Positions 9,139 through 35,608 of a stretch of DNA of 41,959 nucleotides are shown here, piece by piece. Both the position numbers and the translations under genes were made by a program. The stretch's first letter is position 1; each line of letters starts with the position of its first letter. The notes under the pieces are model-generated. The model worked only from the letters and a program-made list of their open reading frames with translations. It was not told the origin of the DNA and searched no databases. The stretch comes from an uncultured Eubacteriales bacterium (GTDB lineage: Bacteria > Bacillota > Clostridia > Christensenellales > Aristaeellaceae): contig CADCJO010000021.1 in assembly GCA_902801765.1 (NCBI GenBank), positions 1 to 41,959 of the forward strand, in the 5' to 3' direction.

Positions 9139-9149
9139 CTTTAAGTAAC

Positions 9150-9500
9150 GAAGAGGAAACGCTGGGGCTGTTCGCCCCAGACCCCAACCAGGGTCCTGAG
9201 GACCCTGGACCCGCAACTGGCGAATGAACATCGTTGGAATAAGCATACAAGCTGGGGAAAGTGAACTTTCCCCCTCGGATTTTCCCAGGCTTTCCGCGGA
9301 TGCAAAGCATCCGGGCTGGCGGCTTCGCCGCCGGGCCAGAAGCCCTACGGCATCAAGTCAAACTTCCGCGTTCCTCCAAGCTTCAGCGAGAACCAAGCTG
9401 GTTTTCTGGTTCAAGTATAATCCGCTATTGAGGTCCAGGAGATGAAATCTCCTGGTGCAGGTGCACGAGGGCCGCACAGGCCCTCGCCCCGTCGTAATTT
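9150..9500 (+). repeat. multi-hairpin interspersed repeat, copy A (family R3)
   Basis: About 350 bp of non-coding DNA made of consecutive hairpins: 9162-9180, 9188-9208, 9254-9273, 9297-9313, 9318-9332, 9435-9455 and 9466-9486. A second copy in opposite orientation lies at 17540-18010 and is collinear over almost the whole length, with conserved linkers such as CTGGACCCGCAA, GGGCCAGAAGC and ATCCGCTATTGAGGTCCAGGAG. Stems differ between copies but stay paired (for example CCAGGGTCC/GGACCCTGG here and CCAGGGCGG/CCGCCCTGG in the other orientation). Sequence at 9501-9541 holds only the next gene's ribosome binding site. Confidence 0.85.
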
Positions 9501-9541
9501 ATAGCGCTCTTTCAATCCCAATTGCCACTGGAGGAATTATT

Positions 9542-17494: not shown

Positions 17495-17539
17495 TTTCTT
17501 TCCCCCTTAAAAGTATTAACACGCTTATTGCGAAAAGTA

Positions 17540-18010
17540 ACGACGAAGCAGGGGCCTATGCGGCCCCCCGTACCCCTGCACCAGGAGGTTTCACCTCCTG
17601 GACCTCAATAGCGGATATTGCTCAAAAAAACGAATTAGCTTGATTCCCGCTGGTGCTTGAAGGAACGCGGAAGAGTGGCTTGGTTCCGTGGTGCTTCTGG
17701 CCCGGCGGATGAATCGCCGATGACCGCCTGTGGCGGGAATTTCATCGGCGATGAAATCAGGCGAAACGAGCAATGTCCGCATGAAGCGGAAAGCCAGGGA
17801 ATCATCCGCAGGGGAAAGCTCACTTTCCGCCTCGGATGTTCCCGGGCTTTCTTGGGCCAGAAGCCTTCAAACTTTCCGTAACCCCGGCACGGCAAGCGGA
17901 GCTTGTCTGCTTATCCCAACAACGTTATTTCGCCTATTGCGGGTCCAGGGCGGTCACCGCCCTGGCGCAGGTCTGGGGGCGCGCAGCCCCCAGCGTCTCC
18001 TTCCCCGCTT
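17540..18010 (-). repeat. multi-hairpin interspersed repeat, copy B (family R3)
   Basis: Inverted relative to copy A (9150-9500), collinear with it and about 120 bp longer. Matching hairpins are 17973-17993, 17945-17965, 17581-17601 and 17550-17566. It has extra arms around the GGAAAG-TGAG-CTTTCC hairpin that copy A has mostly lost, and a different hairpin set next to the shared GGGCCAGAAGC linker. No credible gene lies inside; short open frames here are shadows of the stems. It fills the gap between metH and the unknown gene at 16826. Confidence 0.85.
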
Positions 18011-18065
18011 GCTTTGAAATTTACCCTTGAGAACACAACTGTTTAGAATATAAAGAGAAACAGCG

Positions 18066-20417
18066 TTATTCTCCAAATACCTGCCGGGCGATGGCGACGG
18101 CGGCGCGTGCGTCTTTGGCGTAGTGATCCGCGCCGACGGAGTGTGCCCAGCTTTCCGTCACGACAGCCCCGCCCACCATCACAGCGGGGGGCGCGTCCAT
18201 GCGGCGCAGCTGAGCGATGGTTTCCTCCATGGCGGGCAGGGTGGTGGTCATGAGGGCGGAGAGGCCCACCAGCTTTGCGCAGTGTTCTTTTGCGGCGGAG
18301 ACCACCTTTTCCGGGGGCACGTCCTTACCCAGGTCGATGACGGTATAGCCGTAGTTTTCCAGCACGGTTCTGACGATGTTCTTGCCGATGTCGTGAATGT
18401 CGCCCTGTACGGTGGCGATGATGATTTTGCCCTTGCTGACGGTTTCCGCGCCGGTATTGGCCAATACGGTTTTGATCTCCTCAAATACCGCCTGGGCCGC
18501 CTGGGCGGCGGACAGAAGCTGGGGCAGGAATACCTTGCCCTGCTCGTAGTCCACGCCCACCTTGTCCAGCGCGGGAATCAAATGCCGTTCCACCAGGGAC
18601 AGCGGCGCTTCCGTTTTCAGCGCTTCCCGGGCCATGCGTCCCGCTTCGGTTTTCAGGCCCCGCAGGATGGCGTCGTCCAGGGTCATCGTAAACCCGGCGG
18701 CAGGCTTGCTTTCGGTTTGAGTATCGGCAAACCGGGCGACGTATCGCTTGCTTTGCGCGTCCTCCCCGTTCAGCACCCGGAAGGCGGCGATGGCGTCCAT
18801 GATGTCCTTTTGATTGGGGTTCACGATGGGCAGCGTCAGCCCCGCGTGCAGGGCGCGGATGAGGAAGGTTTGGGTCATGAGCAGGCGGTTGGGCAGGCCG
18901 AAGGAAATGTTGCTGACGCCCAGCAGCGTTTGCAGGCCCAATTGATTCCGCACCATGGCAACGGCCCTGAGCGTTTCCTCCGCCTGCTCCTGCTGGGCGG
19001 ACACGGTGAGGGTCAGGCAGTCGATCCACACGTCCTGCTGGGGGATGCCCAGGGCCAAAGCGCGGGACAGAATTTTTTCCGCGATGGCGAAGCGCTTTTC
19101 GGCGGTGTCTGGAATGCCGTCCTCGTCCAGCGTCAGACCCACCACCGCCGCGCCGTATTTCTTCACCAGCGGCAGAATAACGTTCAGGGATTCTTCCTTG
19201 CCGTTGACCGAATTCACCGCCGCTTTGCCGTTGTATACCCGCAGAGCGGCTTCCAGCGCCTGCGGGTTGGCGGAATCAAGCTGCAGCGGCGCGTCCACCG
19301 CCGCCTGCAGGGCTTTCACCACCCGGGGCAGCATCGTCACTTCGTCCACGCCGGGATAGCCCACGTTCACGTCCAGGATCTCCGCGCCTGCGTCCAGCTG
19401 CTGGATGGCTACGTCCACGATGTAATTGAGATCGTTTTCCAATAATGCCTGCTGGAACCGCTTTTTGCCCGTGGGGTTGATGCGTTCGCCAATCACCCGA
19501 ATCCGGTCCATGGGCAGGGTGACGGTGGGCGTGCAGACGACGCTGCGTGGCTCATACACCCTGCGAACGTCTTTCTTTTCGGATAAAACCTGTCTGAGCG
19601 CCCGGATGTAATCCGGGTTCGTGCCGCAGCAGCCGCCCACAATGTCGGCCCCTTCCCGGAGAATCAGCGCCATGGCGGAAGCAAAATCATCCGCGGATAA
19701 ATCATAGTGCCCGTCGGTGGGGTCGGGCAGGCCCGCGTTGGGCTTGGCGATGACGGGCAAAAGGGTGTTCCGCCGCAGCTCCCGCAGCAGGGGCAGCAGC
19801 TCCACAGGGCCCAGGGAACAGTTGATGCCGATGGCGTCAGCCCCCAGTCCCTCCAGGGTGTGGGCCATGGCGGCGACGGTGCAGCCGGTAAAGGTGCGGC
19901 CCGAGGCGTCAAAGCTCATGGTGACGATGACGGGAAGCTTGGTATGCTCCTTCGCGGCCAGCAGCGCGGCCTTGGCTTCGTACAGGTCGGTCATCGTTTC
20001 GATCACCACCAGGTCGGCCCCGGCTGCCACGCCGGCTTCCATCATCTCCGCGAACTGATCGTAGGCGTCTTCAAAAGTGAGTGTACCAAGCGGCTCCAGC
20101 AGCTCGCCCAGCGGCCCGATGTCCAGGGCGACGAAGGCTTTTTCCCCCGATTCTTTTTTAGCCAAGCGGACGCCCGCGCTGACCACCTCGGCCACGGAAT
20201 GGCCGGTCTTTGCCAGCTTGCGGCGGTTCGCCCCGAAGGTGTTGGCGTACACCACCTGGCTGCCCGCGTCGATATATGCCCGGTGGACAGCGGCAATCAT
20301 TTCAGGATGCTCGATATTTTTCAGTTCCGGGATTTCGCCGGGCTTCAAGCCGCTTTTTTGCAGCATGGTGCCCATGGCCCCGTCCAATAACGTGATTTGG
20401 GAAATATCAAATGCCAC
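18066..20417 (-). CDS. metH: cobalamin-dependent methionine synthase, without reactivation domain
   Basis: 783 residues. Order of domains: homocysteine-binding barrel (about 1-285; Zn ligands C200, C263, C264 in GINC and GGCCGT), pterin-binding methyltetrahydrofolate domain (about 305-560; RVIGERINPTGKK opening), cobalamin cap and Rossmann B12 domain (about 575-783; lower axial ligand H675 in DIHDIGKN). The C-terminal AdoMet reactivation domain of E. coli MetH is missing and is supplied by the separate protein at 20407-21063. It transfers the methyl group from methyl-THF to homocysteine. The start is GTG at 20417, after AGGGGAA, and overlaps the upstream gene by 11 bp. Confidence 0.95.
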   Translation of the reverse strand: MAFDISQITLLDGAMGTMLQKSGLKPGEIPELKNIEHPEMIAAVHRAYIDAGSQVVYANTFGANRRKLAKTGHSVAEVVSAGVRLAKKESGEKAFVALDIGPLGELLEPLGTLTFEDAYDQFAEMMEAGVAAGADLVVIETMTDLYEAKAALLAAKEHTKLPVIVTMSFDASGRTFTGCTVAAMAHTLEGLGADAIGINCSLGPVELLPLLRELRRNTLLPVIAKPNAGLPDPTDGHYDLSADDFASAMALILREGADIVGGCCGTNPDYIRALRQVLSEKKDVRRVYEPRSVVCTPTVTLPMDRIRVIGERINPTGKKRFQQALLENDLNYIVDVAIQQLDAGAEILDVNVGYPGVDEVTMLPRVVKALQAAVDAPLQLDSANPQALEAALRVYNGKAAVNSVNGKEESLNVILPLVKKYGAAVVGLTLDEDGIPDTAEKRFAIAEKILSRALALGIPQQDVWIDCLTLTVSAQQEQAEETLRAVAMVRNQLGLQTLLGVSNISFGLPNRLLMTQTFLIRALHAGLTLPIVNPNQKDIMDAIAAFRVLNGEDAQSKRYVARFADTQTESKPAAGFTMTLDDAILRGLKTEAGRMAREALKTEAPLSLVERHLIPALDKVGVDYEQGKVFLPQLLSAAQAAQAVFEEIKTVLANTGAETVSKGKIIIATVQGDIHDIGKNIVRTVLENYGYTVIDLGKDVPPEKVVSAAKEHCAKLVGLSALMTTTLPAMEETIAQLRRMDAPPAVMVGGAVVTESWAHSVGADHYAKDARAAVAIARQVFGE

Positions 20418-34903: not shown

Positions 34904-34980
34904 CGGGGTGTAGCGCAGTCTGGTAGCGCACGTGCTTTGGGAGCATGGGGCCGGGGGTTCAAATCCCTTCACCCCGACCA
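34904..34980 (+). tRNA. tRNA-Pro (anticodon TGG)
   Basis: Cloverleaf with acceptor CGGGGTG/CACCCCG, anticodon TGG at 34938-34940 followed by G37, T-loop GTTCAAAT, CCA encoded. First of seven tRNA genes. Confidence 0.95.
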
Positions 34981-35016
34981 TTTCTGGTTGGCGAAGGGTA
35001 CGAGGGATGACACCAT

Positions 35017-35089
35017 GGCCCTGTGGTCAAGTGGCCTAAGACACCGCCCTTTCACGGCGGTAACTCGGGTTCGAATCCCGGCAGGGTCA
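35017..35089 (+). tRNA. tRNA-Glu (anticodon TTC)
   Basis: Acceptor GGCCCTG/CAGGGTC (one G-T), anticodon stem CCGCC/GGCGG with loop CTTTCAC giving TTC, T-loop GTTCGAAT. The CCA is not encoded. Confidence 0.94.
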
Positions 35090-35129
35090 TCCTTTCCTTT
35101 ATTCTCCAGCAGCAGCTTCGGGACGCCAA

Positions 35130-35206
35130 GGGCCATTAGCTCAGTTGGTCAGAGCAGTCGGCTCATAACCGATCGGTCCGGGGTTCAAGTCCCTGATGGC
35201 CCACCA
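35130..35206 (+). tRNA. tRNA-Met, elongator type (anticodon CAT)
   Basis: Acceptor GGGCCAT/ATGGCCC, anticodon CAT at 35164-35166, CCA encoded. The anticodon stem lacks the three G-C pairs of the initiator, so it is elongator Met; Ile2 (lysidine-modified) is the alternative and cannot be excluded. Confidence 0.88.
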
Positions 35207-35211
35207 TTTAT

Positions 35212-35286
35212 GGCCCGGTAGTTCAGTCGGTTTAGAATGCCAGCCTGTCACGCTGGAGGTCGAGGGTTCGAGCCCCTTCCGGGTCG
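35212..35286 (+). tRNA. tRNA-Asp (anticodon GTC)
   Basis: Acceptor GGCCCGG/CCGGGTC with G discriminator, anticodon loop CTGTCAC giving GTC, T-loop GTTCGAGC. The CCA is not encoded. Only five bases from the preceding tRNA. Confidence 0.94.
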
Positions 35287-35309
35287 CTTTTCTCTCCCAT
35301 TTGGGTGAT

Positions 35310-35382
35310 GCTGGTGTAGCTCAATTGGCAGAGCAGCTGATTTGTAATCAGCAGGTTGCGGGTTCAAGTCCCTTCACCAGCT
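35310..35382 (+). tRNA. tRNA-Thr (anticodon TGT)
   Basis: Acceptor GCTGGTG/CACCAGC, anticodon stem GCTGA/TCAGC with loop TTTGTAA giving TGT, T-loop GTTCAAGT. The CCA is not encoded. Confidence 0.94.
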
Positions 35383-35429
35383 CTTTCCCTTGGATTACCT
35401 TGGGAATGAATCTTCAAAATCTATTTCAT

Positions 35430-35514
<85 letters not shown>

Positions 35515-35521
35515 TCAAAAT

Positions 35522-35608
35522 GCGGGAATGGCGGAATTGGCAGACGCGCATGATTCAGGTTCATGTGTACGTACGTACTTGCAGGTTCAAGTCCTGTTTC
35601 CCGCACCA
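35522..35608 (+). tRNA. tRNA-Leu (anticodon CAG), likely integration site
   Basis: Class II tRNA. Acceptor GCGGGAA/TTCCCGC, anticodon stem CATGA/TCATG with loop TTCAGGT giving CAG, CCA encoded. The variable arm is made of three GTAC units (stem GTAC/GTAC, loop GTAC). The integrase gene lies just beyond and points at this tRNA, so its 3' end is the probable attachment site. Confidence 0.93.

Follow-up and report, generated by a model that had tools for sequence, protein, structure and literature searches.

What kind of element occurs twice in one stretch of DNA, is built of a long series of hairpins, and differs between its two copies on both sides of its stems while the stems remain paired? 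The window, by which we mean the whole stretch of 41,959 nucleotides analysed here, holds two such copies, A and B, and the initial annotation took their paired stem changes and constant loops as a sign of selection on structure. The answer that we favour, at a probability of about 0.55, is that they are members of a genus-wide, MITE-like repeat family, non-autonomous and with units of about 350-500 bp, that was seeded by transposition and then rewritten by template switching and conversion.

The four hairpin pairs first noticed are present in both copies, B being inverted relative to A, and each copy reaches slightly further than first annotated (about 9139-9507 for A and about 17514-18045 for B). 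The order of parts was obtained from 25 copies aligned in one orientation and from both arms as listed for 82 copies. Read from end to end, the element comprises an outer inverted arm, hairpin hp1, a linker, hp2, a central arm, hp3, a second linker, hp4, and the opposite outer arm. Within the central arm, an outer stem leads to the stem CTTCTGGCCC/GGGCCAGAAG, which opens into one long and two short hairpins (a three-hairpin junction). The left and right halves are approximately inverted versions of each other, so that the whole element forms an imperfect palindrome whose arms bear hairpins. The features of the two copies are as follows.

9139 to 9507, + strand: copy A, whole element including outer arms, between two + strand genes; an insertion relative to the G013 site
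9139 to 9156, + strand: copy A, left outer arm, diverged TIR2-like, CTTTAAGTAACGAAGAGG
9162 to 9180, + strand: copy A, hairpin hp1
9188 to 9208, + strand: copy A, hairpin hp2, CCAGGGTCC-TGA-GGACCCTGG
9254 to 9273, + strand: copy A, tip hairpin of the central arm, with about 70 bp missing to its left
9296 to 9314, + strand: copy A, core helix 7, loop AAA (TTT in other copies)
9317 to 9342, + strand: copy A, core helix 8 and the 3' strand of the long central stem, GGGCCAGAAG
9435 to 9455, + strand: copy A, hairpin hp3, CCAGGAGAT-GAA-ATCTCCTGG
9466 to 9486, + strand: copy A, hairpin hp4
9495 to 9507, + strand: copy A, right outer arm, TAATTTATAGCGC
17514 to 18045, - strand: copy B, whole element, bounded by TIR1 arms (like TTAACAGTC...), between two - strand genes
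18025 to 18045, - strand: copy B, left TIR1 arm, TAAACAGTTGTGTTCTCAAGG
17973 to 17993, - strand: copy B, hairpin hp1
17945 to 17965, - strand: copy B, hairpin hp2, CGG-type stem
17662 to 17887, - strand: copy B, central arm, matched by model R1 at 136.6 bits
17707 to 17788, - strand: copy B, foreign hairpin module replacing core helix 7 and part of helix 8, with similar modules in other copies
17581 to 17601, - strand: copy B, hairpin hp3
17548 to 17569, - strand: copy B, hairpin hp4
17514 to 17539, - strand: copy B, right outer arm, diverged TIR1-like

Relative to the other aligned copies, about 70 bp are missing from copy A, namely the left half of its central arm (the junction is at 9253/9254), in agreement with the earlier proposal that units lose modules. 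In copy B, an extra, foreign module of about 80 bp at 17707-17788 stands where a central hairpin would be. Two kinds of outer arm occur, TIR1 and TIR2, and some copies have no recognisable outer arm. In G000, the genome that holds the window (2.4 Mb, 81% complete), TIR1 (TTAACAGTC...) occurs at 72 sites with up to three mismatches and TIR2 (GGGCACTTTAATTCAC) at 62 sites with up to one; the reversed-pattern control for TIR1 and the control for TIR2 gave none. Adjacent inward-facing TIR1 pairs are spaced 110 to 641 bp apart, the 110-bp pair reading as an internal deletion. Folded as DNA, copy A is more stable than its dinucleotide-preserving shuffles (z -5.8, none of 100 as good), and the RNA fold of one complete copy elsewhere in the same genome reaches z -12.6.

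The two copies are far from alone, and the multi-copy, multi-hairpin family larger than REP/BIME units that was first proposed is borne out, with its unit of about 350-500 bp. The central arm was turned into a covariance model, R1 (179 positions, 63 pairs), which has 149 matches in G000. At least 85 of these are near-full cores, a floor obtained with 150 of 2233 candidates scored; 82 of these 85 were compared by sequence, and the remaining matches are fragments or matches to the palindromic complement. This disposes of the possibility, raised at the outset, that there are no further copies. Of the 62 TIR2 sites, 19 or more are no further than 120 bases from a contig start, so that further copies have probably been lost to assembly. 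R1 matches were found in 27 of the 29 genomes of the genus, G000 included, and are absent from G016 and G027. A sample of the family (120 genomes from 50 genera, under stricter filters) has eight genomes with a match, five of them from the genus; the others (G098, G106, and G153, from two genera) have matches at two places each. One of these, a good copy of 150 bits in a different genus (L377, G106:C97:79411-79591), could be a case of horizontal transfer.

A pattern scan of named species genomes gave at least 90 stretches, in metagenome-assembled genomes titled uncultured Clostridiales, Clostridia, Christensenellaceae, or Oscillospiraceae. Among the matches listed, many have goat, red deer, or water buffalo in their labels, and two are from Chloroflexi. 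When 15 of these stretches were checked with R1, 13 proved true copies; the two Chloroflexi 20-mer matches (L297 and L298) had no R1 match and were rejected as chance. The labels of the relatives suggest that the host of the window is a gut bacterium. Plasmid and phage collections gave no match to the element. Rfam 15 at gathering threshold returned only tRNAs over the whole window, and copy A had no Rfam match up to a permissive E value of 5. Seven tRNA genes are clustered at 34904-35605 on the + strand of the window. In another family of the order, a lone tandem pair resembling hp1-hp2, with a similar linker and no central arm, was seen at L051:1500-1580 (G042). This is a real genus-wide repeat family, unusually large among palindromic non-autonomous repeats, and we did not recognise a description of it in the open-access literature searched on bacterial MITEs and on palindromic and Clostridia or rumen repeats.

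With respect to genes, the copies are distributed far from evenly. A codon-usage gene caller was trained on 14 open reading frames of the window, 12 of them with a Pfam hit. Of 137 copies, it located 121 between two called genes and left 16 unassigned, some of the relatives' copies sharing a site with a G000 copy. The placed copies occupy 79 tandem, 38 convergent, and 4 divergent gaps. On a circular chromosome, convergent gaps are as numerous as divergent ones, so that 38 against 4 points to strong avoidance of gaps between two promoters (two-sided binomial about 6e-8, somewhat overstated since some sites are common to genomes). Copies A and B each lie between tandem genes, on the transcribed strand; over all tandem gaps, 45 copies have the same orientation as transcription and 34 the opposite one, so that, with inverted elements at shared sites as well (see below), no fixed orientation to transcription was found. 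An intrinsic-terminator reading of copies A and B was rejected, each region having one hit where shuffles average 0.8 and 1.0. Two promoter-like matches lie at 18020-18075 of the window, by the outer edge of copy B, where shuffles average 0.2.

How the copies came to these places is best seen at shared gene junctions. The comparison of filled and empty orthologous gaps, already envisaged in the initial annotation, is informative at one site, the junction that holds copy A in G000: this is empty in G013, with 13 bases between the matching stretches, and has a 454-bp insertion of the same family in G007. This one comparison suggests that transposition itself took place. At the same junction, G019, the closest species, has similar outer arms around an unrelated inner palindrome. 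A second site (G000:C5:60202-60568) presents a comparable picture: in G019 and G004, TIR2-like outer arms enclose other palindromes, G010 carries a family member, and G013 and G023 have further palindromes. Other elements also nest inside copies, including two kinds of insert at the hp3 tip. No target-site duplication is evident by eye at TIR1 or TIR2 ends, in a comparison with a single clean empty site. Among the listed sites of G000 and G019, there are no adjacent inward-facing TIR1 pairs 1-3 kb apart, in assemblies that break in repeats, and no autonomous transposon with TIR1 was seen.

Several other repeats were noted in passing. In relatives, the slots of copy A and of the second site hold other palindromic repeats (L176 and L269-L273), such as AAAGCCTTCCCC... 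and TGTCATCCCGAGCG..., the latter of which we take to resemble REPs. Further MITE-like repeats are nested in copies at G000:C60:9797-10437 (L154; ATACTAAACTCAAT..., at the hp3 tip) and at G000:C3:51965-52566 (L079; GGGAGTGTTCACACTACC...).

Comparison of orientation at shared sites adds a second kind of change. It covered 57 relatives' copies, 20 of them from G019, and one-flank matches were left out (two inverted-type and one contradictory in G019, three same and one contradictory in G007, one inverted-type and one same in G013, and one contradictory in G004). At the seven sites where both flanks are common to G000 and G019, the element is inverted at four, copy B and three others, and the junctions outside the arms of these inverted elements match the counterpart; in more distant relatives, all four shared sites have the same orientation (three in G007, one in G013). 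When 23 relatives' copies were ranked by similarity against 76 G000 copies, the nine shared sites took ranks 1, 1, 4, 20, 24, 41, 56, 59, and 75 of 76. Two inverted pairs (ranks 1 and 4) look like the same copy turned round. At six of the nine sites (ranks 20th to 75th), the paired copies are no closer than many unrelated copies: the position is common to the genomes, and the sequence is not recognisably inherited with it. One copy shows the opposite of free rewriting, being 99.5% identical between G000 (L066, C31:6144-6322, flush with a stop codon) and G019 (L210), with flanks at 90-91%; it could be functional or have been replaced recently.

Such turnover at fixed positions can be explained by copy-to-copy conversion in either orientation or by repeated insertion at one junction. 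A further type of change, at the tips of hairpins, favours copying. At helix 6 (126 copies), loops occur as pairs of reverse complements with almost no one-step intermediates: TGAA 30 and TTCA 18 (intermediates in one copy), TAAA 29 and TTTA 11 (in three copies), and CTCG 14 and CGAG 4 (in none). At helix 7 (131 copies), AAA is found 72 times and TTT 25 times, GAA 20 and TTC 5 times, and other loops 9 times. On a tree made with the tips masked (133 of 143 rows, 165-185 nt), the minimum number of changes of orientation is 19 for helix 7 and 7, 7, and 2 for the three loop pairs of helix 6. Recombination between copies can inflate these counts, but does not by itself make reverse-complement loops. 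The orientations of helices 6 and 7 have no evident association (joint counts 41, 34, 15, and 9). The constancy of loops, as first described, therefore fails at these two core tips. It does hold at other tips, which mostly do not flip: helix 8 has TTC 79 times and GAA twice, hp3 one loop 30 times against 2 for its commonest stem, and hp2 TGA in 50 of 51. Flipping is thus clear at two tips only, and our confidence in template switching and conversion is reduced by the tips that do not flip.

These observations bear directly on the alternative in which several palindromic mobile elements insert recurrently and independently into preferred post-gene slots, with no conversion, the hot spots possibly being the hairpin tips of older elements. 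We consider it possible, if rather doubtful. Such hot-spot insertion could mimic both conversion and inversion; a single site holds at least four kinds of palindrome over six genomes, the two kinds of insert at the hp3 tip fit, and insertion sequences that target REP palindromes are known (PMC1525189). Yet the outer arms stay recognisable at the same site across several species while the interior changes, the inverted copies keep their counterpart's junctions with two inverted pairs near-best mutual matches, and the flips at tips are left without an explanation.

The pairing itself was the starting point of the structural interpretation, and it is real. In an alignment of the relatives (68 distinct rows), 97.2% of cells are paired, in an alignment fitted to the R1 model and hence biased toward it. 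Twenty-four of the 63 pairs have changed on both sides, with 126 cells carrying a double change against a shuffle mean of 37.9, a value never reached in 500 shuffles; the covariation thus exceeds the shuffled control, and template switching gives the same signal. The inner part of hp2 occurs as five perfectly paired types (TCC, CGG, GGA, TAC, and TGG). In the inner helices, double transversions number 35 against 12 one-sided ones in the relatives' alignment, and 43 against 63 in the G000 alignment, which includes interrupted copies. Of the original claim, then, the covariation stands, the constancy of loops holds at some tips only, and the inference of selection is not established: together with in-place inversion and exchange, the loop flips at two tips mean that copying between arms can explain the pairing with no selection for pairing. 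The evidence for a mutational explanation is no weaker than that for selection on structure.

That the copies are functional structured RNAs, or RNA 3'-end elements, kept by selection for pairing and dispersed like a regulon, is accordingly unlikely in our estimation, despite several points that speak for it. Besides the covariation and the stable RNA fold of one copy, copies lie at gene 3' ends, one loop is kept at three of the five tips examined, and one copy is 99.5% conserved between species. Over all stems, moreover, GU exceeds AC by about 3:1 in both alignments, compared with 1.6-1.7 for raw unpaired transitions. This excess falls to 22:17 and 50:26 in the best-aligned inner helices and to 0:5 in hp2, and the wobble test of an RNA strand was dropped as support, the 3:1 excess being weak within inner helices. 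The mixed orientation in tandem gaps, the inversion of four of the seven elements shared with G019, the inverted loops at two tips, the lack of an Rfam match, and the unrelated palindromes found at the same site in some relatives likewise argue against a structured RNA.

Some constraint does appear to act, on sequence. Variation is about threefold lower in paired columns (0.06) than in unpaired ones (0.18-0.21), and the sampled genomes hardly differ in the central stem. Template switching does not explain either of these, and the low variation of paired columns exceeds what arm-to-arm copying alone would give, so that the central stems are probably under sequence constraint. Our guess is a protein recognising the central stem, perhaps the mover of the element.

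Very improbable is that these are REP/REPIN-type elements moved as single-stranded hairpins by an IS200/RAYT (Y1) transposase, for although they are palindromic, extragenic, and high in copy number, a REP-like palindrome (TGTCATCCCGAGCG...) lies in the same slot of two relatives, and the copy-rich G003 and G024 do have a Y1 match (PF01797), this match is absent from six copy-rich, incomplete genomes (G000, G019, G007, G013, G010, and G017), and the 10 of 29 genus genomes that have it include G027, which has no copy at all.

In the preferred reading of seeding by transposition and later rewriting, the family would have spread from a putative trans-acting source, and its sites would afterwards tend to stay in place, their content being replaced through the copying of a nearby template. 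During replication, a hairpin arm could be copied from the opposite arm by template switching, which would give both paired changes and inverted loops, and whole elements could be converted from other copies in either orientation. Insertions would survive where promoters stay joined to their genes, and copies would hence gather after stop codons, where they may add putative hairpins to mRNA 3' ends. Template switching suits the two tips and, by extension, the element as a whole. A single-step origin of paired changes and loop inversions by template switching has been proposed for the hairpins of rRNA (PMC8794818). More tentatively, the post-gene sites might form a self-copying slot system, stable through speciation, in which palindromes are rewritten, flipped, and exchanged by copying that is blind to orientation.

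Several known systems resemble the family in part. Bacterial MITEs such as Correia, RUP, and ERIC are short, noncoding, intergenic elements with terminal inverted arms, many copies, and nested insertions. The present repeats are likewise short, multi-copy, intergenic, nested, and devoid of coding capacity; they have terminal inverted repeats and an insertion, at one site, where a relative is empty. Unlike bacterial MITEs, they span 350-500 bp with at least seven sub-hairpins in fixed order and change orientation and content in place; as regards the hallmarks of MITEs, target duplication is not evident by eye at the single clean empty site and an autonomous partner was not found among the listed TIR1 sites. 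Foldback transposons have large terminal palindromes that fold back on themselves. Large palindromes fold back here too, but the arms carry hairpins, and no transposase partner is known. With REP, BIME, and REPIN repeats (PMC2817692, PMC3116915), the family shares its palindromic, extragenic, high-copy character and its mosaic of hairpins; it differs from them in a unit about ten times larger than their 20-40 bp and in the six copy-rich genomes with no Y1 (RAYT) match. As in the rRNA hairpins (PMC8794818), paired changes and reverse-complement loops are possible in one step at the DNA level, but that case concerns rRNA genes, whereas here the repeat is interspersed, numbers dozens of copies per genome, and shows inversions of whole elements as well.

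Covariation across the copies of a repeat is easily mistaken for proof of a selected RNA structure. In this family, it comes with reverse-complement loops and in-place inversions, which point, at least in part, to a mutational cause; covariation alone is thus insufficient for naming such repeats noncoding RNAs. The dozens of copies per genome and the many related species make the template-switch explanation directly testable in bacteria. Across these species, intergenic slots hold a changing set of nested palindromes, and, if they do constitute a self-copying system, the repeat would stay paired and homogeneous within each genome with little or no ongoing transposition.
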